Shown here: positions 1,492 to 21,063 of the stretch, piece after piece
Layout of the letters: every line of letters starts with the position of its first letter
Numbering within the stretch: position 1 is the stretch's first letter
NCBI GenBank assembly: GCA_945876945.1
Contig: CAMCQE010000029.1
Coordinates: 1 to 34,087, forward strand
Source of the DNA: Klebsiella pneumoniae
GTDB taxonomy: Bacteria > Pseudomonadota > Gammaproteobacteria > Ga0077536
Reading direction: 5' to 3'
DNA: 34,087 nt
The notes under the pieces: generated by a model
What the model saw: the letters and a program-made list of their open reading frames with translations, nothing else
What the model was told of the DNA's origin: nothing
Database searches by the model: none
Translations under genes and position numbers: made by a program

Positions 1492-1524
1492 GATTGCGGC
1501 GCCTCCGGGCGCCGCAATCGTTTT
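1492..1524 (+). terminator. Strong intrinsic terminator after the YCF48-like gene
   Basis: A perfect 12-bp stem (GATTGCGGCGCC / GGCGCCGCAATC) with a TCCG tetraloop, followed by GTTTT, 21 bases after the stop codon. This is the best Rho-independent terminator in the window. The next gene starts only 35 bases further on, so that gene's promoter must overlap the terminator or it depends on read-through. Confidence 0.9.
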
Positions 1525-1559
1525 CAGCCCACTACAAATTGCGATTGGAGATGAGCCCG

Positions 1560-3038
1560 ATGTCCAACGAACCCCGTCTTGCTACCGCCGTGCTGGTCAC
1601 CACCGGCGACGCTGAAAACCTGCGCATCCTGCTGGTTGAGCGCTCTGCCACCCTGCGCTTTTTTGGCGGCTATTGGGCGTTTCCGGGCGGTGCCTTTGAA
1701 GCCTGCGACCAGATTGGCGAGCAACTGGCGAGCCTGAGCTGCGGCGTTCGTGAGCTAATTGAAGAGACCGCGCTACTGCCGGATGCGCTGGGCCTAAACC
1801 TCGATGAGGCCCAACAGCTTCTGGCCGCGCTGCCGGAAGGCGGTGCGGCAACTACGCAATGGCAATCAGCTATCGGCAAGGTGGCCGCAAGCGGGCAATC
1901 CACGGTGGTCTGTCGAATCACGACACCGGCGCACTCTCCGATTCGCTTCGCCACCGATTTCATCCGGATTCATGTCGCAAACGCGACCGAACCCACGCTC
2001 GATGCACGCGAATTGGTGAACTGGTGTTATCTCACGCCGGCAGAGGCCGTGGCGCGCTGGCGACGGGGCGAACTGCCCATCGCGCCCCCTACCCTGCTGC
2101 TGCTCGAATTCCTGGCAGAACACGGGGCGGACAATTTTGTTGAACCGGCCCAGGCGGCGGCCGACGCATTCGACCGCGGAGAATTTCATCCGGCGCGTTT
2201 CTCACCCGGCATCTTTACCGCACCGGTGCCCACACCAACCTTGCCACCCGCCACTACCACCAACTGCTACATCGTGGGCACCAGCGAGCTTTACGTGGTT
2301 GACCCTGCGGCTATCCACGCCGAGCACCAGCAACGTCTCATCGCCAAGCTGGAAGCGCTGTGCCGCGACGGTGCCCAGGTAAAAGGCATTCTGTTGACTC
2401 ATCATCATCGCGATCACACCGGCGCCGTGGCGGCGCTGAGTCGACACTTTCAGGCGCCGGTGCATGCGCATGAACTCACCTACCCACAACTTCCAGACCC
2501 GGACTACGTGCGGGGCACTGCGCTCAACGAGGGCGACGTGATTGAACTGGGCACCGCGCCCGACGGCACGCCGGGCTGGCGACTGGATGTGATGCACACG
2601 CCCGGCCACGCGCGTGACCATTTGTGCTTCATCGAAAACCGCTATCAGGCGGCAATTGTGGGCGATATGTTGTCGACCATCTCCACCATCATCATCGACC
2701 CGCCGGAAGGCCACATGGCGACCTATCTGCGGGAACTGGAACGCCTGCTAGCGCGCCCGATGACCACGCTGTATCCGGCGCATGGTCCGGCGCACCGCGA
2801 AGGCCCGGTGCTTATCAAGCACTTCCTCGCGCATCGACGCGCCCGCGAGCAGAAAGTCCGTGAGGCCCTGAGCGCTGAACCGCAATCACTGGAAGCGCTG
2901 TTGCCGGTGGCCTATGGCGACGTGGCACCGGCCGTGCGCGGCGCGGCGATGCGTTCACTGCTCGCGGGACTTGAAAAGCTGTCAGAAGAAGGCTTGGCGC
3001 GCGTGACGGCGGAAGGCCACTGGCAACTCGCCGCCTAG
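1560..3038 (+). CDS. NUDIX hydrolase + metallo-beta-lactamase fusion protein
   Basis: 492 residues from the ATG at 1560, chosen because GGAG lies 9 bases upstream; an ATG at 1551 sits directly against that GGAG. The N-terminal domain (about 5-220) is NUDIX-like: G43-G44 and the core R64-E65-L66-I67-E68-E69. The spacing between the first Gly and Arg is about six residues longer than the classic box, and Ala replaces the last Gly; such insertions occur in NUDT7/8/19-type CoA diphosphatases. The C-terminal domain (about 225-490) is an MBL fold close to LACTB2-like hydrolases: HxHxDH at 281-286, H350 in HTPGH, D369 in VGDML and H408 in YPAHG, so all metal ligands are present. Both halves look catalytically competent. 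Substrates are unknown; a CoA-ester or nucleotide-derivative clean-up role is a guess. It converges on tag. Confidence 0.88.
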   Translation: MSNEPRLATAVLVTTGDAENLRILLVERSATLRFFGGYWAFPGGAFEACDQIGEQLASLSCGVRELIEETALLPDALGLNLDEAQQLLAALPEGGAATTQWQSAIGKVAASGQSTVVCRITTPAHSPIRFATDFIRIHVANATEPTLDARELVNWCYLTPAEAVARWRRGELPIAPPTLLLLEFLAEHGADNFVEPAQAAADAFDRGEFHPARFSPGIFTAPVPTPTLPPATTTNCYIVGTSELYVVDPAAIHAEHQQRLIAKLEALCRDGAQVKGILLTHHHRDHTGAVAALSRHFQAPVHAHELTYPQLPDPDYVRGTALNEGDVIELGTAPDGTPGWRLDVMHTPGHARDHLCFIENRYQAAIVGDMLSTISTIIIDPPEGHMATYLRELERLLARPMTTLYPAHGPAHREGPVLIKHFLAHRRAREQKVREALSAEPQSLEALLPVAYGDVAPAVRGAAMRSLLAGLEKLSEEGLARVTAEGHWQLAA

Positions 3039-3786: not shown

Positions 3787-4557
3787 CTAGCGCGGTGGCA
3801 GGCGACTGGCGGCGTCGAGGCGTACCGATTCTCCGTTGAGATACGGATTGTCGATCATCGCCAGCGCGAGCTTGGCGTATTCCTCTGCCAGCCCAAAGCG
3901 CTTGGGATATTCAATCTGCATCTGAATGCCTTCACGGACCTTGTCCGGCAGGCCGCGCATCATCGGAGTTTCAAACAGGCCGGGCGCGATGCAATTGCAG
4001 CGAATACCATCGCGCGCCAAATCGCGCGCCACCGGCAGCGACAGACCCACAACGCCAGCCTTGCTCGCACCATAGGCCGCCTGGCCCATCTGGCCGTCCC
4101 ACGCCGCAATGGACGCGGTATTAACGATAACGCCGCGCTCACCGCTCATACCTTCCGGCGCGTTCTTGGTCATTTCCACCGCCGCCAAACGCAGCACGTT
4201 GAAGGTGCCGATGAGATTGACGTTGATAATGCGCTGGAACTGCTCGAGCGGATGGGCTTCTCCCTTGCTCACCGTCTTCGAGGCGCTACCGATGCCGGCG
4301 CAGTTGATGCAAATGTGGATGGCGCCAAACGCGTTCATCGCGGCGGCGATGCCGTCTTTCACGTTTTGCTCGTCGGCCACATTCACGTGGCAGTAAATCG
4401 CGGCGTCGCCGAGTTCTGCGGCCAGCGCATTACCAAGCTCATCGCTCAAATCGAAAATCGCCACGCGCGCGCCGGCGTTTACGAGTGCTTCAACCGTGGC
4501 CCGGCCGAGTCCGGAGGCGCCACCGGTGACGATCGCCACCTTGCCCTGTACCTGCAT
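3787..4557 (-). CDS. SDR, type II 3-hydroxyacyl-CoA dehydrogenase-like (HSD10 family)
   Basis: 256 residues. Expected reaction: NAD-dependent oxidation of 3-hydroxyacyl-CoA to 3-oxoacyl-CoA, the third step of beta-oxidation. The Rossmann motif TGGASGLG is at 11-18, N-A-G-like NCAG at 85-88, catalytic S149 and YGASK with Y162 and K166. The C-terminal region with PKRFG, AEEYAKLALAMI, NPYLNGE and RLDAASRLPP is characteristic of the HSD17B10-like branch rather than generic SDRs. The ATG at 4557 is preceded by a strong GGGGAGAGAG; upstream frame extension has no support. It is divergent from the glutathione transferase gene and about 0.8 kb from the thiolase on the same strand, consistent with fatty or branched acyl-CoA breakdown. 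Confidence 0.88.
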   Translation of the reverse strand: MQVQGKVAIVTGGASGLGRATVEALVNAGARVAIFDLSDELGNALAAELGDAAIYCHVNVADEQNVKDGIAAAMNAFGAIHICINCAGIGSASKTVSKGEAHPLEQFQRIINVNLIGTFNVLRLAAVEMTKNAPEGMSGERGVIVNTASIAAWDGQMGQAAYGASKAGVVGLSLPVARDLARDGIRCNCIAPGLFETPMMRGLPDKVREGIQMQIEYPKRFGLAEEYAKLALAMIDNPYLNGESVRLDAASRLPPR

Positions 4558-4637
4558 AATCTCTCTCCCCAAATGTGTGTTCTGCGCCAGCCGGAGCGGC
4601 GCGCCAAGTGCGTCCGTATGATAGCCGCTGACCACGT

Positions 4638-4656
4638 TGCGGGCACCGTGCCCGCA
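4638..4656. promoter_or_regulatory. Inverted repeat in the SDR/GST divergent region, candidate operator
   Basis: Perfect 8-bp arms TGCGGGCA / TGCCCGCA separated by CCG. It sits 14 bases before the GST Shine-Dalgarno and 15 bases after a TATGAT -10 candidate at 4617-4622. Position and symmetry suit a dimeric repressor (TetR or MarR type). In RNA it would be a GST 5'-UTR hairpin. Confidence 0.45.
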
Positions 4657-4681
4657 GGCCCCATCAACTCAGGAGATTGCG

Positions 4682-5311
4682 ATGAAACTGTTCGATTTTG
4701 AACTCGCGCCCAACCCGCGCCGCGTGCGCATGTACCTCGCAGAAAAAGGCCTGCAAATGCCCAGCGTGCAGATCAATCTGCGGCAGGGCGAGCAGTTTCA
4801 TGCCGAATTCAAAGATGAGAATCCCTCGATGATTGTGCCGGCCCTCGCACTCGACGACGGCACACTCATCACCGAGACCATGGCCATTTGCCGGTATCTG
4901 GAAGCCCTGCATCCCACACGGCCCTTATTCGGCAGCACGCCGAAGGAGCAGGCCATGGTGGAAATGTGGAGCCGGCGCGCTGAGTTGGAAGGCTTCATGG
5001 CGGTGGCGGAAGCGCTGCGCAACTCGGTTGAACGATTCAAGGATCGCGCCCTGCCCGGCCCGCGCAATTACGCACAAATTCCGGCCTTGGTGGAACGCGG
5101 CAAAGCGCGTGCGGCGGGTTTTCTTGAGGATTTGGAAGCCGGGCTTGCAGGTAAGACCTGGCTGGCCGGCGAGTTCTTTAGCGTGGCCGACATCACCGCT
5201 TTTGTGGTGGTGGAGTTCGCCGGCTGGGTAGAGGTCCAGCCGGCGGCTCATCAGCAAAACATTGCGCGCTGGCGCGCCGCGATGGCAGCGCGCCCCAGCA
5301 CCAACGCCTGA
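4682..5311 (+). CDS. Glutathione S-transferase family protein
   Basis: 209 residues. An N-terminal thioredoxin-like domain (1 to about 80) contains LAPNPRRVRMYLAEKG in place of the usual catalytic-loop region and TETMAICRYLE, where the acidic-Ser/Thr pair normally binds the glutamyl end of glutathione. A helical C-terminal domain (about 90-209) follows, with VADITAFVVVEFAG, the conserved Asp region of GST C-domains. Asn-Pro occupies the position where many bacterial GSTs have Ser or Cys, so the catalytic residue cannot be assigned from sequence. AGGAG six bases upstream fixes the ATG at 4682. Divergent from the SDR gene, it may handle electrophiles from lipid breakdown; substrate unknown. Confidence 0.88.
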   Translation: MKLFDFELAPNPRRVRMYLAEKGLQMPSVQINLRQGEQFHAEFKDENPSMIVPALALDDGTLITETMAICRYLEALHPTRPLFGSTPKEQAMVEMWSRRAELEGFMAVAEALRNSVERFKDRALPGPRNYAQIPALVERGKARAAGFLEDLEAGLAGKTWLAGEFFSVADITAFVVVEFAGWVEVQPAAHQQNIARWRAAMAARPSTNA

Positions 5312-5313
5312 GG

Positions 5314-5327
5314 AGGCGCCGGCGCCT
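5314..5327. terminator. Palindrome between convergent GST and thiolase genes
   Basis: The 14-bp perfect palindrome AGGCGCCGGCGCCT fills the 22-base gap between the two convergent stop codons. As RNA it forms only a short GC-rich stem and there is no real T tract. Confidence 0.3.
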
Positions 5328-5333
5328 TTCGAC

Positions 5334-6515
5334 TTACAGCAGTTCCAGCGCCACGGCGGTGGCTTCACCGCCGCCGATGCACAGGCTGGCAACACCGCGC
5401 TTCAGACCCAGATCGCGCAGCGCGTGAACCAGGGTCACGATGATGCGCGCGCCGGAAGCGCCGACCGGATGACCCAGCGCGCAGGCGCCGCCGCGGATGT
5501 TGAGCTTTTCATGCGGGATCTTGAGGTCGTGCATCGCGGCCATCGCTACCACCGCAAAGGCTTCGTTCACTTCGAAGAGATCCACATCGTCCACCGTCCA
5601 GCCAACCTTCTTCAGCAGCTTGTCGATCGCAGACACCGGCGCGGTGGTGAACCAGCCCGGCTCTTGCGCATGCGTGGAGTGGGCGAGAATGCGTGCCAGC
5701 GGGGCCAGACCCATTTCAGTCGCGCGCGAGCCGGTGGTCAGCACCAGCGCGGCCGCACCGTCGGAAATAGAACTGGAGTTGGCCGCCGTGACGGAGCCGT
5801 CTTTGGCGAAGGCCGGACGCAGCGTCGGGATTTTGTCGAGCTTGGCCTTGAGCGGCTGCTCGTCGGTATCAATCACCTTGCCGTCTTTGCTGCCCGGAAT
5901 GGCGACCGGCGCGATTTCGGCCTTGAAGTGGCCGCCGGTGATCGCCTTCTGCGCGCGCATGAGCGATTCAATCGCGTAGTTGTCCTGGGCTTCGCGGGTG
6001 AAGGCGTACTTGCGCGCGCAATCTTCGGCGAAGGTACCCATCAGGCGACCGCGCTGGAAGGCGTCTTCCAGGCCGTCGAAGAACATGTGGTCGAGCACTT
6101 CGCCGTGGCCTAAACGCATCCCGCCGCGCATTTTGGGCAGCAGATAGGGGGCGCTGGTCATGTTCTCCATGCCGCCGGCCACCACGATACCGGCGGAGCC
6201 GGCGACCAGGGCGTCGTGCGCCTGCATTACGGCCTTCATGCCAGAACCGCACATTTTGTTGATGGTGGTGCAGCCAACGCTGGTCGGAATGCCGGCGCCC
6301 ATCGAGGCCTGACGCGCGGGGGCTTGGCCCAAACCGGCGGGCAACACGCAGCCCATAATCACTTCTTCCACCAGTTCCGGCGCCACGCTGGCGCGTTCCA
6401 GCGCAGCCTTGATCGCCACGGAACCCAGCACCGGGGCGGCGACGTTGGCCAGATCCCCCTGCATTCCACCCATCGGGGTACGGGCGAGCCCGACCACTAC
6501 TACGCTGTCTTGCAT
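5334..6515 (-). CDS. Thiolase (acetyl-CoA C-acyltransferase)
   Basis: 393 residues, the usual length for bacterial thiolases. Catalytic residues are in place: C89 in NKMCGSGMKA (acyl-enzyme), H349 in ALGHPVGASGAR and C379 in SLCIGGGEATA. The GGGEA ending, rather than GGGMG, is common in acyl-CoA-degrading homologues. Reaction: thiolytic cleavage of 3-oxoacyl-CoA to acetyl-CoA plus shortened acyl-CoA, or the reverse condensation. GAGGAACGAG just upstream supports the ATG at 6515. It lies 65 bases downstream of lhgO on the same strand, with a T-rich leader, so it may be the last gene of that operon or have its own promoter. With the nearby HSD10-like SDR it gives two successive beta-oxidation steps. 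Confidence 0.92.
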   Translation of the reverse strand: MQDSVVVVGLARTPMGGMQGDLANVAAPVLGSVAIKAALERASVAPELVEEVIMGCVLPAGLGQAPARQASMGAGIPTSVGCTTINKMCGSGMKAVMQAHDALVAGSAGIVVAGGMENMTSAPYLLPKMRGGMRLGHGEVLDHMFFDGLEDAFQRGRLMGTFAEDCARKYAFTREAQDNYAIESLMRAQKAITGGHFKAEIAPVAIPGSKDGKVIDTDEQPLKAKLDKIPTLRPAFAKDGSVTAANSSSISDGAAALVLTTGSRATEMGLAPLARILAHSTHAQEPGWFTTAPVSAIDKLLKKVGWTVDDVDLFEVNEAFAVVAMAAMHDLKIPHEKLNIRGGACALGHPVGASGARIIVTLVHALRDLGLKRGVASLCIGGGEATAVALELL

Positions 6516-17410: not shown

Positions 17411-17902
17411 ATGAACCAGACTTTCGACCGGATCGACCGCAACATCCTCAGCGCGCTCCAGCGCGATGGGCGCATGAGCAATGTCACCCTTGCCGAGGCG
17501 GTGCATCTCTCCGAGTCGGCCTGCCTGCGGCGGGTGCGGCAGCTCGAGGAAACCGGTGTCATCGCGGGCTACGTGATGCTGGTCGACCAGCCCAGCGTGG
17601 GCTATCCATCGGATGTGTTCGTCCAGATCAGCCTCAATCGTCAGCAGGGAGAAGATTTGGAACGCTTTGAACAGGCGGTCGCGGAGGTACCGGAAATTAT
17701 GGAGTGCTATCTCATGACCGGGGAATGCGACTACCTGGTGCGGGTCATCGCGGCCGACGCGCGCGACTTCGAGCGCATCCACACCCAGCATCTGACGCGC
17801 CTGCCCGGGGTGGCCCGCGTCCATTCAAGCTTCGCGCTGCGCAAAGTCGTGAAGAAAACCGAAGTGCCGGTGCGCGACGCCGGCACGCCGTCCGCCCGAT
17901 GA
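17411..17902 (+). CDS. Lrp/AsnC family regulator, probable ald regulator
   Basis: 163 residues. N-terminal helix-turn-helix (about 5-60: RIDRNILSALQRDGRMSNVTLAEAV, then LSESACLRRVRQLEETGVI), followed by an RAM ligand-binding domain (about 70-150), with VMECYLMTG-like IMECYLMTGECDYLVRV, the usual effector-loop region. AGGA seven bases upstream supports the ATG. Divergent from ald, so it most likely activates ald in response to alanine and controls itself; this is inferred from context and known AldR/Lrp systems. Its TGA overlaps the ATG of the next gene (ATGA). Confidence 0.93.
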   Translation: MNQTFDRIDRNILSALQRDGRMSNVTLAEAVHLSESACLRRVRQLEETGVIAGYVMLVDQPSVGYPSDVFVQISLNRQQGEDLERFEQAVAEVPEIMECYLMTGECDYLVRVIAADARDFERIHTQHLTRLPGVARVHSSFALRKVVKKTEVPVRDAGTPSAR

Positions 17903-18474
17903 GCCCCGCCTATTCGCCAGAACTGGCCCCGGACGTCCAGCGCGCGCTGGCCCGCTGGCCCAATGTGCCGGCCGCCTTCGGCTGGTTGCGTCTGGACCGT
18001 CGCGCCCGCTGGCGAGTGCCCGACGGCCCGATCACCCACCCGGGCACCATTGGTTTCCTGCATCGCCACTATGGCGCCGACGAGGCCGGCCGCTGGTTCG
18101 TCCAGAACGGGCCGCAGCGCGCCTATGTGGCGCTCGATCTTGCGCCCTGGGTGTTCAGTCTGGATGGCATCGGGCGCCTGGGTACGCCGGCTGGGCGGCT
18201 GGTCGAACAAGTGGATGCGCTGGTGCTCACCCCTTGCGGGGAGACCTTGCTGATGACCGAACTGGGTCTCGGCAATGTGCTCGATCGGGATCTGGCGCGA
18301 TTCACGACGCTGCTCGAATCCAGCGCCGAGGGCGGCGCCCTGCAGGCGGTGCTGGACGGCCGGGACGATCACCCTCTGCACTATCTGGGGCGGCGACTGC
18401 CGGTATTGCGGTTCACGGTCGCGGCGCTACCTGCCAGATTTGGCTTTCAACGCGAGCCGGAAGCCCTCACCTGA
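17899..18474 (+). CDS. Unknown 191-residue protein coupled to the Lrp regulator
   Basis: I do not recognise a characterised family. Visible features: PNVPAAFGWLRLDRRARWRV, a Trp/Arg-rich start; GFLHRHYGADEAGRWFVQNGPQRAYVALDLAPW; then LVLTPCGE and LHYLGRRLPV. No signal peptide or membrane segment; the pattern suggests a compact alpha/beta protein. The ATG at 17899 overlaps the TGA of the Lrp gene by ATGA; a longer upstream frame would lie inside that gene. Coupling suggests a role with the Lrp/ald unit, but neighbours alone do not prove it. No terminator with a T tract is evident downstream; the 215 bases after it hold only a candidate promoter for the next gene. Confidence 0.8.
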   Translation: MSPAYSPELAPDVQRALARWPNVPAAFGWLRLDRRARWRVPDGPITHPGTIGFLHRHYGADEAGRWFVQNGPQRAYVALDLAPWVFSLDGIGRLGTPAGRLVEQVDALVLTPCGETLLMTELGLGNVLDRDLARFTTLLESSAEGGALQAVLDGRDDHPLHYLGRRLPVLRFTVAALPARFGFQREPEALT

Positions 18475-18689: not shown

Positions 18690-20291
18690 ATGGAACTCGA
18701 CGCAGCGACAATCAAAGGCGTGACCGACCAACAAACCGGTCGGTTAGTGCGAGAAAGCCAGCATGAGTGTCTGCTGGGTGCCGCCGGTGTTCTCATTGGT
18801 CTGCTTGCACTGAAGGAATTTACTGCTGAACTGGCGATGGCCGCCTGGGCGGGTCTGGGCTGGGCCTCCTACGGCGTTCGCTACCTGTTAGTCCGTCGCG
18901 CACGCGCTGTGCTGGCACGCGGCGGCGATTCCAGCGAGGTTTTTCCTGCTTTTGCGATATCGCTGGCCGTCACTGGCGTGCTGTGGGGCGCGGCCTTCGC
19001 CTGGGTCCTGCGCGAAGGCATCACCGTGGTTGGCACGCCGCTCATGCTGCTGGGGCTCGCAATCGTGATGCTGTCGGTGGCCTTTCATGCCGGAACGCCG
19101 AAGATCACCCGCCTGTTTGTCGCCGCCGTGCTGCTGCCGCCAGCGCTGACCTTACTCTCTCAACCCCTCGTTTTTGTGTGGCCATCGCTCCTTGGATTTG
19201 CTTTCTTCGCCGCCGTGGCGCATTTCGGGGGGCTGCAACTCCGCAACCGACTCTGGCAAGGCAGCCTGCTCGAAGATGAAGCGACCCAGCTGCGCAGTTA
19301 CCTTGACCAGCGCCGCAATCAGGTTGAGAAACTCAAGGTGGAGGTGAAGGCGAGCCAGAACAAACGCGACGAGGCCGAAATCGCGATGCGCCGCATGGCC
19401 GCCGACCTTGGGCTGCTGCAAGGCAAATCCAAAGCCTTGTCTGACTCGCTGGAACGTCTCTCGCCTATCGACCAGGTGACCGGCCTGGACAATCGCCGTC
19501 ATTTCGAACAAACCACCGAGGCGGAATGGGGACGTGCGGCGCGCGAAGGCAAGCTGGTCTCGCTGTTGCTGATCGAAATGGACGGCCATGACGAGTTCGC
19601 TGCCGCCAATAATCGGCAAACCTCCGACCTGGTCCTCAAACGCCTCGGCATGACCGTTCGCAGCTTCGGCCGTCGCCCCGGCGACAACGCGGCCCGCTAC
19701 GACGAGTCGCGAGTCGCGCTGCTGCTCCCGGGTTGCGACTCCCGCAATGCGGAACGTCTGGCCGAAAGCGTTCGCAAGAAAATTGAAACCATCACCCTGC
19801 CGCAACACGCCGGCTCCGGTGCACCGAGCGCTCAACTCACCGCGCACATTGGGGTTGCCACGGCCAAGCCTATGCGCGGTGTCGATTCAACCGAGCTGTA
19901 CCGGCGCGCCGAGGCTGCCCTGTACGAAGCCGGTTTCCATTCCGGCAATCGCGTGATCGTCCATCGACCCTTGAGCAAGCTCCGGGTGGAGCGCTGGGAC
20001 CTCGCCACCGACGGCCCGCTCAGCGAGCAGTCGATGATGCAAAAACTGCTGGTCTGGGGCTATGAAACCAAACGCGACCTGATGCCACTCAACACCAAGC
20101 TCGAGCCGCAGAGCTGGGACGGCGAAGTGGTTCTCGGCATCATGACCGGGGAGCTCCGACTGGAGGTCGAGGGTCACGATATGACAGTCAAAAGCGGCGA
20201 CTGCGTGGTGGTCCCGCTGGGCGTTGAACTGGGTCAGGAAGTGATCGGTAGCCGTCCCGTCCTCAAATTCACAGCGAATAAACTCAAGTAA
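18690..20291 (+). CDS. Six-TM membrane protein with degenerate GGDEF and C-terminal cupin-like domain
   Basis: 533 residues. Six hydrophobic segments (about 28-43, 47-69, 87-107, 112-132, 140-157, 161-180) precede a charged coiled-coil (about 185-255). A GGDEF-type domain follows (about 258-425): DQVTGLDNRRHF at 261-272 matches the conserved entry motif, but the signature is RYDESRVALLLP (R336-P347) with no GG(D/E)EF. The first metal-binding Asp is Glu (E296) in LLLIEMDGHDEF, which also lacks the FK pair. It should therefore not make cyclic di-GMP. Residues about 470-530 look like a cupin barrel: GIMTGELRLEVEGHDMTVKSGD then VVVPLGV, without the usual metal histidines. It is probably a membrane sensor or scaffold that binds a ligand or nucleotide. 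AGGAAAAGGA precedes the ATG. Located between the Lrp unit and a periplasmic FKBP. Confidence 0.85.
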   Translation: MELDAATIKGVTDQQTGRLVRESQHECLLGAAGVLIGLLALKEFTAELAMAAWAGLGWASYGVRYLLVRRARAVLARGGDSSEVFPAFAISLAVTGVLWGAAFAWVLREGITVVGTPLMLLGLAIVMLSVAFHAGTPKITRLFVAAVLLPPALTLLSQPLVFVWPSLLGFAFFAAVAHFGGLQLRNRLWQGSLLEDEATQLRSYLDQRRNQVEKLKVEVKASQNKRDEAEIAMRRMAADLGLLQGKSKALSDSLERLSPIDQVTGLDNRRHFEQTTEAEWGRAAREGKLVSLLLIEMDGHDEFAAANNRQTSDLVLKRLGMTVRSFGRRPGDNAARYDESRVALLLPGCDSRNAERLAESVRKKIETITLPQHAGSGAPSAQLTAHIGVATAKPMRGVDSTELYRRAEAALYEAGFHSGNRVIVHRPLSKLRVERWDLATDGPLSEQSMMQKLLVWGYETKRDLMPLNTKLEPQSWDGEVVLGIMTGELRLEVEGHDMTVKSGDCVVVPLGVELGQEVIGSRPVLKFTANKLK

Positions 20292-20296
20292 ATCGC

Positions 20297-20343
20297 AAAC
20301 TGACGGGCGGCACCGGCCGGTGTTCGGTGTCTCGTCGCAGTTT
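20297..20343 (+). terminator. Possible long hairpin after the GGDEF-cupin gene
   Basis: AAACTG (20297-20302) can pair with CAGTTT (20338-20343), enclosing a 12-bp palindrome CACCGGCCGGTG (20311-20322). The outer T-rich arm resembles a bidirectional terminator, but the stem is interrupted. Confidence 0.3.
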
Positions 20344-20388
20344 AATCTCAGCCTTTCACCCGTCCCTCAATCCAGGAGCCAGACCCTT

Positions 20389-21063
20389 ATGAAACTTTCC
20401 CTGCTCGCCGCCAGTGTGGCAGTCGCACTTTCCGCCAGCCTGAATGCTGTCGGCGGCGAACTCACAACCGATTCCCAAAAAGCCAGCTACGCCATTGGCC
20501 TCACCTCCGCCCAGAGCATCACGCGGCAGGGCGTGGAACTGGACCTCACCGCTTTCACGGCGGGCGTTAAAGACGCCATCGAGGGCAACAAGCCGCAGCT
20601 GACCGAAGAACAGTTCAAGGCCGCGCTTGAGAAAGCCTCGCAATCGGTCAACGACCGGATGCAGAAAAAAGCGCAGTCCAATCTGGACGCGGGCAAGGCC
20701 TTCATGGCCAAGAACAAGAAAGACCCCAGCGTGAAGGAACTCGCCAACGGTCTGCAGTACAAGGAACTTAAAAAAGGCACCGGCGCCAAGCCCAAGGCCA
20801 CCGACACCGTGGTGGCGCACTACGTGGGCACCCTGCTGGACGGCAGCGAATTCGACAGCTCCCGCGCACGCGGCGAGCCGGCGACCCTGCCGCTCGACAG
20901 CGTGATTCGTGGCTGGCAGGAAGCGATTCCGCTGATGAGTGTGGGTTCGCGCTGGCAGGTGGTGATTCCGCCGGACCTCGCCTACGGCCTCAAAGGCGCC
21001 GGCCCGATCGGGCCCAATCAGACCCTGATTTTCGATATCGAACTGATTGAAATCAAAAAGTAA
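20389..21063 (+). CDS. Periplasmic FKBP-type peptidyl-prolyl isomerase (FkpA/Mip-like)
   Basis: 224 residues. Signal peptide (1-20, LSASLNA then VGG). A helical dimerisation domain (about 24-115) includes TDSQKASYAIGLTSAQSI and the long helix EEQFKAALEKASQSVNDRM, as in FkpA and Mip. The FKBP catalytic domain spans about 120-224, with VVAHYVGTLLDGSEFDSS (141 on), PLDSVIRGWQEAIPLMSVGS, and the active-site tail PPDLAYGLKGAGPIGPNQTLIFDIELI. It catalyses cis-trans proline isomerisation and acts as a folding chaperone in the periplasm. The ATG at 20389 has AGGAG ten bases upstream. An in-frame extension upstream would destroy the signal peptide. A perfect-stem terminator follows, reaching into the convergent rnd gene. 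Confidence 0.94.
   Translation: MKLSLLAASVAVALSASLNAVGGELTTDSQKASYAIGLTSAQSITRQGVELDLTAFTAGVKDAIEGNKPQLTEEQFKAALEKASQSVNDRMQKKAQSNLDAGKAFMAKNKKDPSVKELANGLQYKELKKGTGAKPKATDTVVAHYVGTLLDGSEFDSSRARGEPATLPLDSVIRGWQEAIPLMSVGSRWQVVIPPDLAYGLKGAGPIGPNQTLIFDIELIEIKK

Follow-up and report, generated by a model that had tools for sequence, protein, structure and literature searches.

Introduction

Degenerate GGDEF domains that act as receptors are already known, and each new output joined to one shows where c-di-GMP acts. PopA of Caulobacter crescentus is a degenerate GGDEF receptor that uses its I-site (PMC5052742). PelD is a membrane-bound degenerate GGDEF receptor, in which binding of c-di-GMP requires the RxxD motif (PMC7112168). 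In the cyclase WspR, the second I-site arginine, R198, is supplied by the neighbouring GGDEF domain; the R242A and R198A variants purify essentially free of c-di-GMP, while a GGAAF mutant, whose active site is dead, retains binding of added c-di-GMP (PMC2270323). Lastly, the cupin domain of CuxR from Sinorhizobium meliloti is itself a c-di-GMP binder (PMC10519070).

Here we describe a gene within a 34,087-nucleotide stretch of bacterial DNA, hereafter the window, whose predicted product carries a degenerate GGDEF domain between a membrane region and a cupin. By search, the closest GGDEF domains are those of WspR/SiaD-type cyclases, with which the window protein has in common the EWxRxxR helix and the RxxD I-site; it differs from them in its destroyed active site, in a membrane anchor that takes the place of the receiver domain, and in the added cupin. 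Its likeness to PopA, as judged by sequence, is that of a dead A-site next to an intact I-site, i.e., of a receptor rather than an enzyme (PMC5052742). With PelD it shares a membrane location, a dead GGDEF domain and the RxxD motif that PelD needs for binding (PMC7112168), and CuxR is a second case in which a cupin is connected with c-di-GMP (PMC10519070). PelD, however, also contains a GAF domain and needs a further arginine (R395 in B. cereus, R402 in P. aeruginosa). The window protein has neither a GAF domain nor pel genes nearby, and the position that we take to match PleD R390 is not arginine in 28 of 30 family members. In LapD the GGDEF domain is followed by a degenerate EAL domain, whereas here there is no EAL match and a cupin follows instead. 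PopA, for its part, has receiver domains and lacks both a transmembrane (TM) region and a cupin; in CuxR, an AraC-type transcription factor, it is the cupin that binds c-di-GMP, and there is neither a GGDEF domain nor a membrane part. On these sequence features, the window protein belongs to neither of the two named families, PopA and PelD.

According to a first-pass annotation of this DNA, the GGDEF-cupin order is not known to have been described. Our literature searches for GGDEF-cupin proteins agree with this: among the papers searched, we found no description of such a protein, nor a published example of a metal-free cupin output joined to a GGDEF domain. The family is therefore apparently undescribed, and it comprises conserved bacterial membrane proteins.

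Results

Gene and domain layout

The open reading frame encodes 533 amino acids and begins with an ATG at 18690, immediately preceded by AGGAAAAGGA, which holds an AGGA ribosome-binding-like site. Its features are as follows.

18690..20291, + strand: gene for the 533-aa six-TM/coiled-coil/pseudo-GGDEF/pseudo-cupin protein (ATG and AGGA site; 30 versions with the same domain order; dN/dS 0.13)
18768..19232, + strand: membrane region, residues 27-181, with six predicted TM segments (Kyte-Doolittle)
19257..19457, + strand: predicted coiled-coil linker, residues 190-256 (charged helical stretch, conserved in the alignment)
19458..19961, + strand: degenerate GGDEF domain, residues 257-424 (Pfam PF00990, 4.1e-26; WspR structures; dN/dS 0.06)
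19542..19544, + strand: codon of R285, aligned with R198, the second I-site arginine of WspR (invariant in 30/30; alignment to 3i5a)
19674..19685, + strand: codons of the primary I-site motif R329-P-G-D332, RxxD (R and D in 30/30, G in 29/30)
19695..19712, + strand: RYDESR, residues 336-341, the destroyed GG(D/E)EF signature (GG(D/E)EF in 0/30)
19968..20288, + strand: cupin module without metal ligands, residues 427-533 (Cupin_2 in 21/21; profile matches to solved cupins)

The six TM segments proposed in the first-pass annotation are borne out, at about residues 27-45, 50-68, 89-107, 114-132, 139-157 and 163-181. Five are clear by Kyte-Doolittle analysis in the window sequence alone, and the sixth (50-68) becomes apparent in the mean of 14 orthologues. 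In the alignment, nearly every family member has the membrane region; a Pfam scan of this region returned no membrane-domain match. The proposed coiled coil stands as a charged helical stretch: a low-confidence AlphaFold model has helices at about 190-256, consistent with a coiled coil but not proof of it. The model of the whole protein, with two sequences as input, reached a pLDDT of only 43.

The GGDEF domain

Residues 260-418 match Pfam PF00990 with E=4.1e-26 (profile positions 3-158 of 161), above the curated cut-off, as do the domains of all 21 family members scanned. WspR structures are the best solved relatives (E about 1e-23), and a SiaD model matches at 1e-17. Annotation based on Pfam only would thus label the fusion genes as diguanylate cyclases, and caution is warranted. 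The entry motif DxxTGLDNRRxF is present in the window copy as DQVTGLDNRRHF; as had been noted earlier, E296 occupies the position of the first metal Asp, and RYDESR replaces RYGG(D/E)EF. We take PleD residues D327, N335 and D344 to correspond to E296, A304 and D313. The features of an active diguanylate cyclase, namely GG(D/E)EF and a metal Asp together with a guanine-binding Asn/Asp, are lacking, and this holds for the family: none of the 30 cupin-bearing members has the GG(D/E)EF signature, and none has the guanine-binding Asn at the N335 position. Among the 156 alignment columns of the 30 homologues, those of the active site rank 57-152 in conservation. The GG(D/E)EF motif is kept only in relatives without a cupin, the closest of which are ordinary cyclases, mostly with RxGDxAARxGGEEF; it is absent from the full-length homologues. 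The GGDEF domain is thus predicted to be catalytically dead. Pfam searches of the window protein gave no match to an EAL or a GAF domain. GTP sensing through the A-site was a further possibility, but an unlikely one given that no member has the guanine-binding Asn.

In contrast to the active site, which every one of the 30 versions has lost, R285, R329 and D332 are each conserved in 30/30, a point that the first-pass annotation had missed. R329xxD332 is the primary I-site motif, and R285 aligns with WspR R198 (alignment to 3i5a). That is, the combination of RxxD with a degenerate A-site, as expected of an I-site receptor of the PopA/PelD kind, occurs in every version, and so does an arginine at the WspR R198 position. 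What we take to be the PleD R390 position, where receptors of the PopA/PelD kind would have another arginine, is S360 here and is Arg in 2/30; the site is therefore WspR-like in its second arginine. The three I-site residues all fall among the 11 invariant columns of the GGDEF alignment, for which simple counting gives a chance of ~3e-4, relatedness being ignored. The other invariant columns include the non-ligand positions E279, R282, D298, R336 and P394; a structural role is possible for D332 and R336. Because the relatives without a cupin are ordinary cyclases, we regard the I-site as an ancestral feature that was kept after catalysis had been lost. In the same genome, the other GGDEF domains have the residue of the R329 position in 12 of 18 cases and that of the D332 position in 15 of 18, and the three others with a dead A-site (L155, L159 and L161) have lost RxxD; the fold therefore does not need the motif.

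The cupin module

Judged by sequence profiles, the C-terminus is a cupin. The Cupin_2 match in the window copy is weak (E=0.0026, below the curated cut-off), but all 21 family members scanned match this Pfam family, the best at 5.9e-8; a few also match AraC_binding. A profile built from the fused cupins alone found mostly solved cupins, with EutQ first at 1e-7. The cupin suggested in the first-pass annotation therefore holds up, though not its length of about 60 residues: the N-terminal part (LRVERWD...GPLSEQ...KLLVWGY) is conserved and shared with standalone cupins, so the module spans ~107 residues (427-533). These standalone proteins, annotated as 'cupin domain-containing protein' (Cupin_2, about 105 aa), are homologous over the whole module, including VEHWN...GALSE...KL..GY, and one of them retrieves the fused cupins at E about 1e-12 to 1e-21.

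The two kinds differ in their metal ligands. Standalone proteins keep the three histidines: among the 27 relatives in which both motifs are readable, HxH is found in 26 and the motif-2 His in all 27. By contrast, both HxH and the His of PxGxxH are absent in 30/30 fusions, so that the pair of motifs typical of a metal-dependent cupin enzyme occurs in none of them. The conserved positions of the fused cupins are the fold glycines, P509, D504 and the N-terminal W436, K452 and GY (457-458); beyond these, no conserved pocket residues stand out. Modeled alone by AlphaFold, the cupin gave an all-beta structure with pLDDT 59 and pTM 0.49, and Foldseek returned no significant match for this low-confidence model.

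Standalone cupin genes are also found near fusion genes. In one genome (G374), a standalone cupin (L135:3389-3724) lies directly upstream of the fusion gene (3804-5390); in another (G016), the cupin directly upstream is on the minus strand at about 1750-2103 of L085 and is frameshifted, through either decay or assembly error. Both have the metal histidines, and the two genomes are from different families. In two genomes of the same family in which no fusion was found (G014 and G021; L050 and L048), a standalone cupin gene sits between genes for what we take, from their sequences, to be a sodium:solute symporter-like protein on one side and GDSL-lipase/tesA-like and FKBP-like proteins on the other.

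Distribution and origin

The same domain order was found in 30 versions, a count that includes near-identical pairs and one gene split by a frameshift (L024), across six GTDB families of the class. This recurrence is far beyond chance, and confirms the order read from the window copy. Full-length homologues occur in most members of the genus and in several other genera of the family, while further members, from other families of the class, emerged when a profile of the cupin module was used for searching. In a sample of 369 genomes of the class, 13 genomes from six families carry the fusion. A phylum-wide sample (n=398) contained no fusion other than that of the window's own genome, and only standalone cupins. 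No relative was found on viral contigs. Plasmids carried nothing related to the window's cupin, and their matches to a standalone cupin were all weak and mostly partial. A contig scan gave one close match (L038), 91% identical, on a Gammaproteobacteria MAG contig.

The window protein belongs to subfamily A. Genes of subfamily B (L023, L024, L039-L043) lie elsewhere in the genome and co-occur with A in several genomes. In L024 (G017), the frameshift leaves two overlapping frames, which could reflect decay or assembly error.

In the GGDEF tree the fused members form one clade (100/100), and in the cupin tree a single branch (96/99) separates the fused cupins from the standalone ones. Neither tree has an outgroup, and only 105 columns underlie that of the cupins. 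Given these groupings, a single fusion, with loss of both catalytic sites, would be the simplest history. Relative to the nearest orthologue (91% identical), dN/dS is 0.13 for the whole gene, ~0.20 for the membrane and cupin parts and 0.06 for the GGDEF domain, which is the most constrained part of the protein.

Proposed function and alternatives

Our preferred interpretation, to which we assign a probability of roughly 0.6, is that the protein acts in the inner membrane as a c-di-GMP receptor comparable to PopA and PelD, and that its metal-free cupin serves as the output or partner-binding module. The ancestor would have been a diguanylate cyclase resembling WspR, with six TM segments and a coiled coil as its anchor, that gained a C-terminal cupin; its catalytic site would have been lost and its allosteric c-di-GMP site kept. 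c-di-GMP produced by the other cyclases of the cell would bind to R329 and D332 of the I-site and to R285 of the partner domain, as in WspR, and thereby cross-bridge the pseudo-GGDEF domains of a dimer. Cross-bridging would in turn move the attached cupin, or alter its contacts with a partner, so that this metal-free domain would serve as an output or protein-contact module. We infer c-di-GMP binding, cross-bridging, the cupin's role as output and any sensing role of the membrane part; conservation of the I-site residues is not in itself proof of c-di-GMP binding. Points that weigh against this reading are the frequency of the R329 and D332 residues among the other GGDEF domains of the genome, the possible structural role of D332 and R336, the rarity of Arg at the presumed PleD R390 position and a gene neighbourhood that hints at no pathway. 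It is very likely, though, that c-di-GMP is present in the cell, since the genome encodes 15 other GGDEF domains with an intact GG(D/E)(D/E)F (one of them, L160, being an odd, distant match) as well as PilZ receptors (five matches). The earlier idea of a dead GGDEF domain acting as a receptor or scaffold is thus sharpened by the contrast between the I-site (30/30) and the active site (0/30); the idea that the cupin gives or receives a signal gained no support as to direction.

Several alternatives can be weighed against this interpretation. The protein could be a membrane sensor that is independent of nucleotides, in which the TM region senses, the pseudo-GGDEF domain is only a dimerizing link, the cupin is the output, and the I-site is kept for the sake of the fold or the dimer. 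The near-universal membrane region fits this possibility, as do the invariant columns that are not ligands (E279, R282, D298, R336 and P394). Nevertheless, we consider it unlikely, in that of only 11 invariant columns three hold I-site ligands, whereas no active-site column has escaped drift, and in that the other dead GGDEF domains of the genome show RxxD to be dispensable for the fold. The cupin could instead be the input, binding a small molecule without a metal, with the pseudo-GGDEF domain either integrating this signal with c-di-GMP or relaying it to a partner. AraC-type cupins do bind small molecules without a metal, and cupins often bind sugars or other ligands. The AraC_binding matches of a few members and c-di-GMP binding by the CuxR cupin (PMC10519070) also speak for an input role; however, apart from the conserved positions listed above for the fused cupins, no pocket residues are conspicuous, and neither a ligand nor an operon clue was found, making this role distinctly improbable.

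A modulator that pairs with a WspR-like enzyme in mixed dimers, thereby tuning its activity, would account for the nearest GGDEF relatives being active-looking WspR-like cyclases, one of them in the same genome (L145). Pairing with cytoplasmic cyclases is not an obvious expectation, though, because the membrane region and the coiled coil are specific to the family, and no cyclase is a conserved neighbour at the 13 orthologous loci examined; we therefore see very little room for such a role. The destroyed motif of the window copy would also be expected if a cyclase gene had simply decayed in this one genome. Yet the motif is missing in all 30 cupin-bearing versions, synteny is kept, and dN/dS is 0.06-0.20 by domain, which together rule out decay of the window copy for practical purposes; the first-pass annotation had named intact full-length homologues as the sign of decay, and those with a cupin likewise lack GG(D/E)EF. 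Under the receptor interpretation, what is apparently one fusion event, represented in six GTDB families, yields a conserved candidate for a membrane receptor, with three clear I-site residues (R285, R329 and D332) and a metal-free cupin as output module.

Genomic neighbourhood

Two genes flank the fusion gene on the same strand.

17704..18474, + strand: DUF2946-family protein gene, upstream (Pfam PF11161, 8.5e-42)
20320..21063, + strand: FKBP-type peptidyl-prolyl isomerase gene, 28 bp downstream (Pfam FKBP_C/FKBP_N)

The FKBP gene is downstream on the same strand in 13/13 orthologous loci, though not always adjacent, and co-transcription with the fusion gene is possible. The DUF2946 gene is upstream in 10 of the 13 loci, one of the remaining loci being cut by a contig end, and RNase D and Prc genes lie beyond the FKBP gene in most of the 13 subfamily A loci. 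None of these conserved neighbours (DUF2946, FKBP, RNase D and Prc) suggests a pathway, and there are no pel genes nearby in the window. Elsewhere in the window, at 1494-3038, a NUDIX domain is joined to a metallo-beta-lactamase fold with a winged helix, as identified by Pfam.
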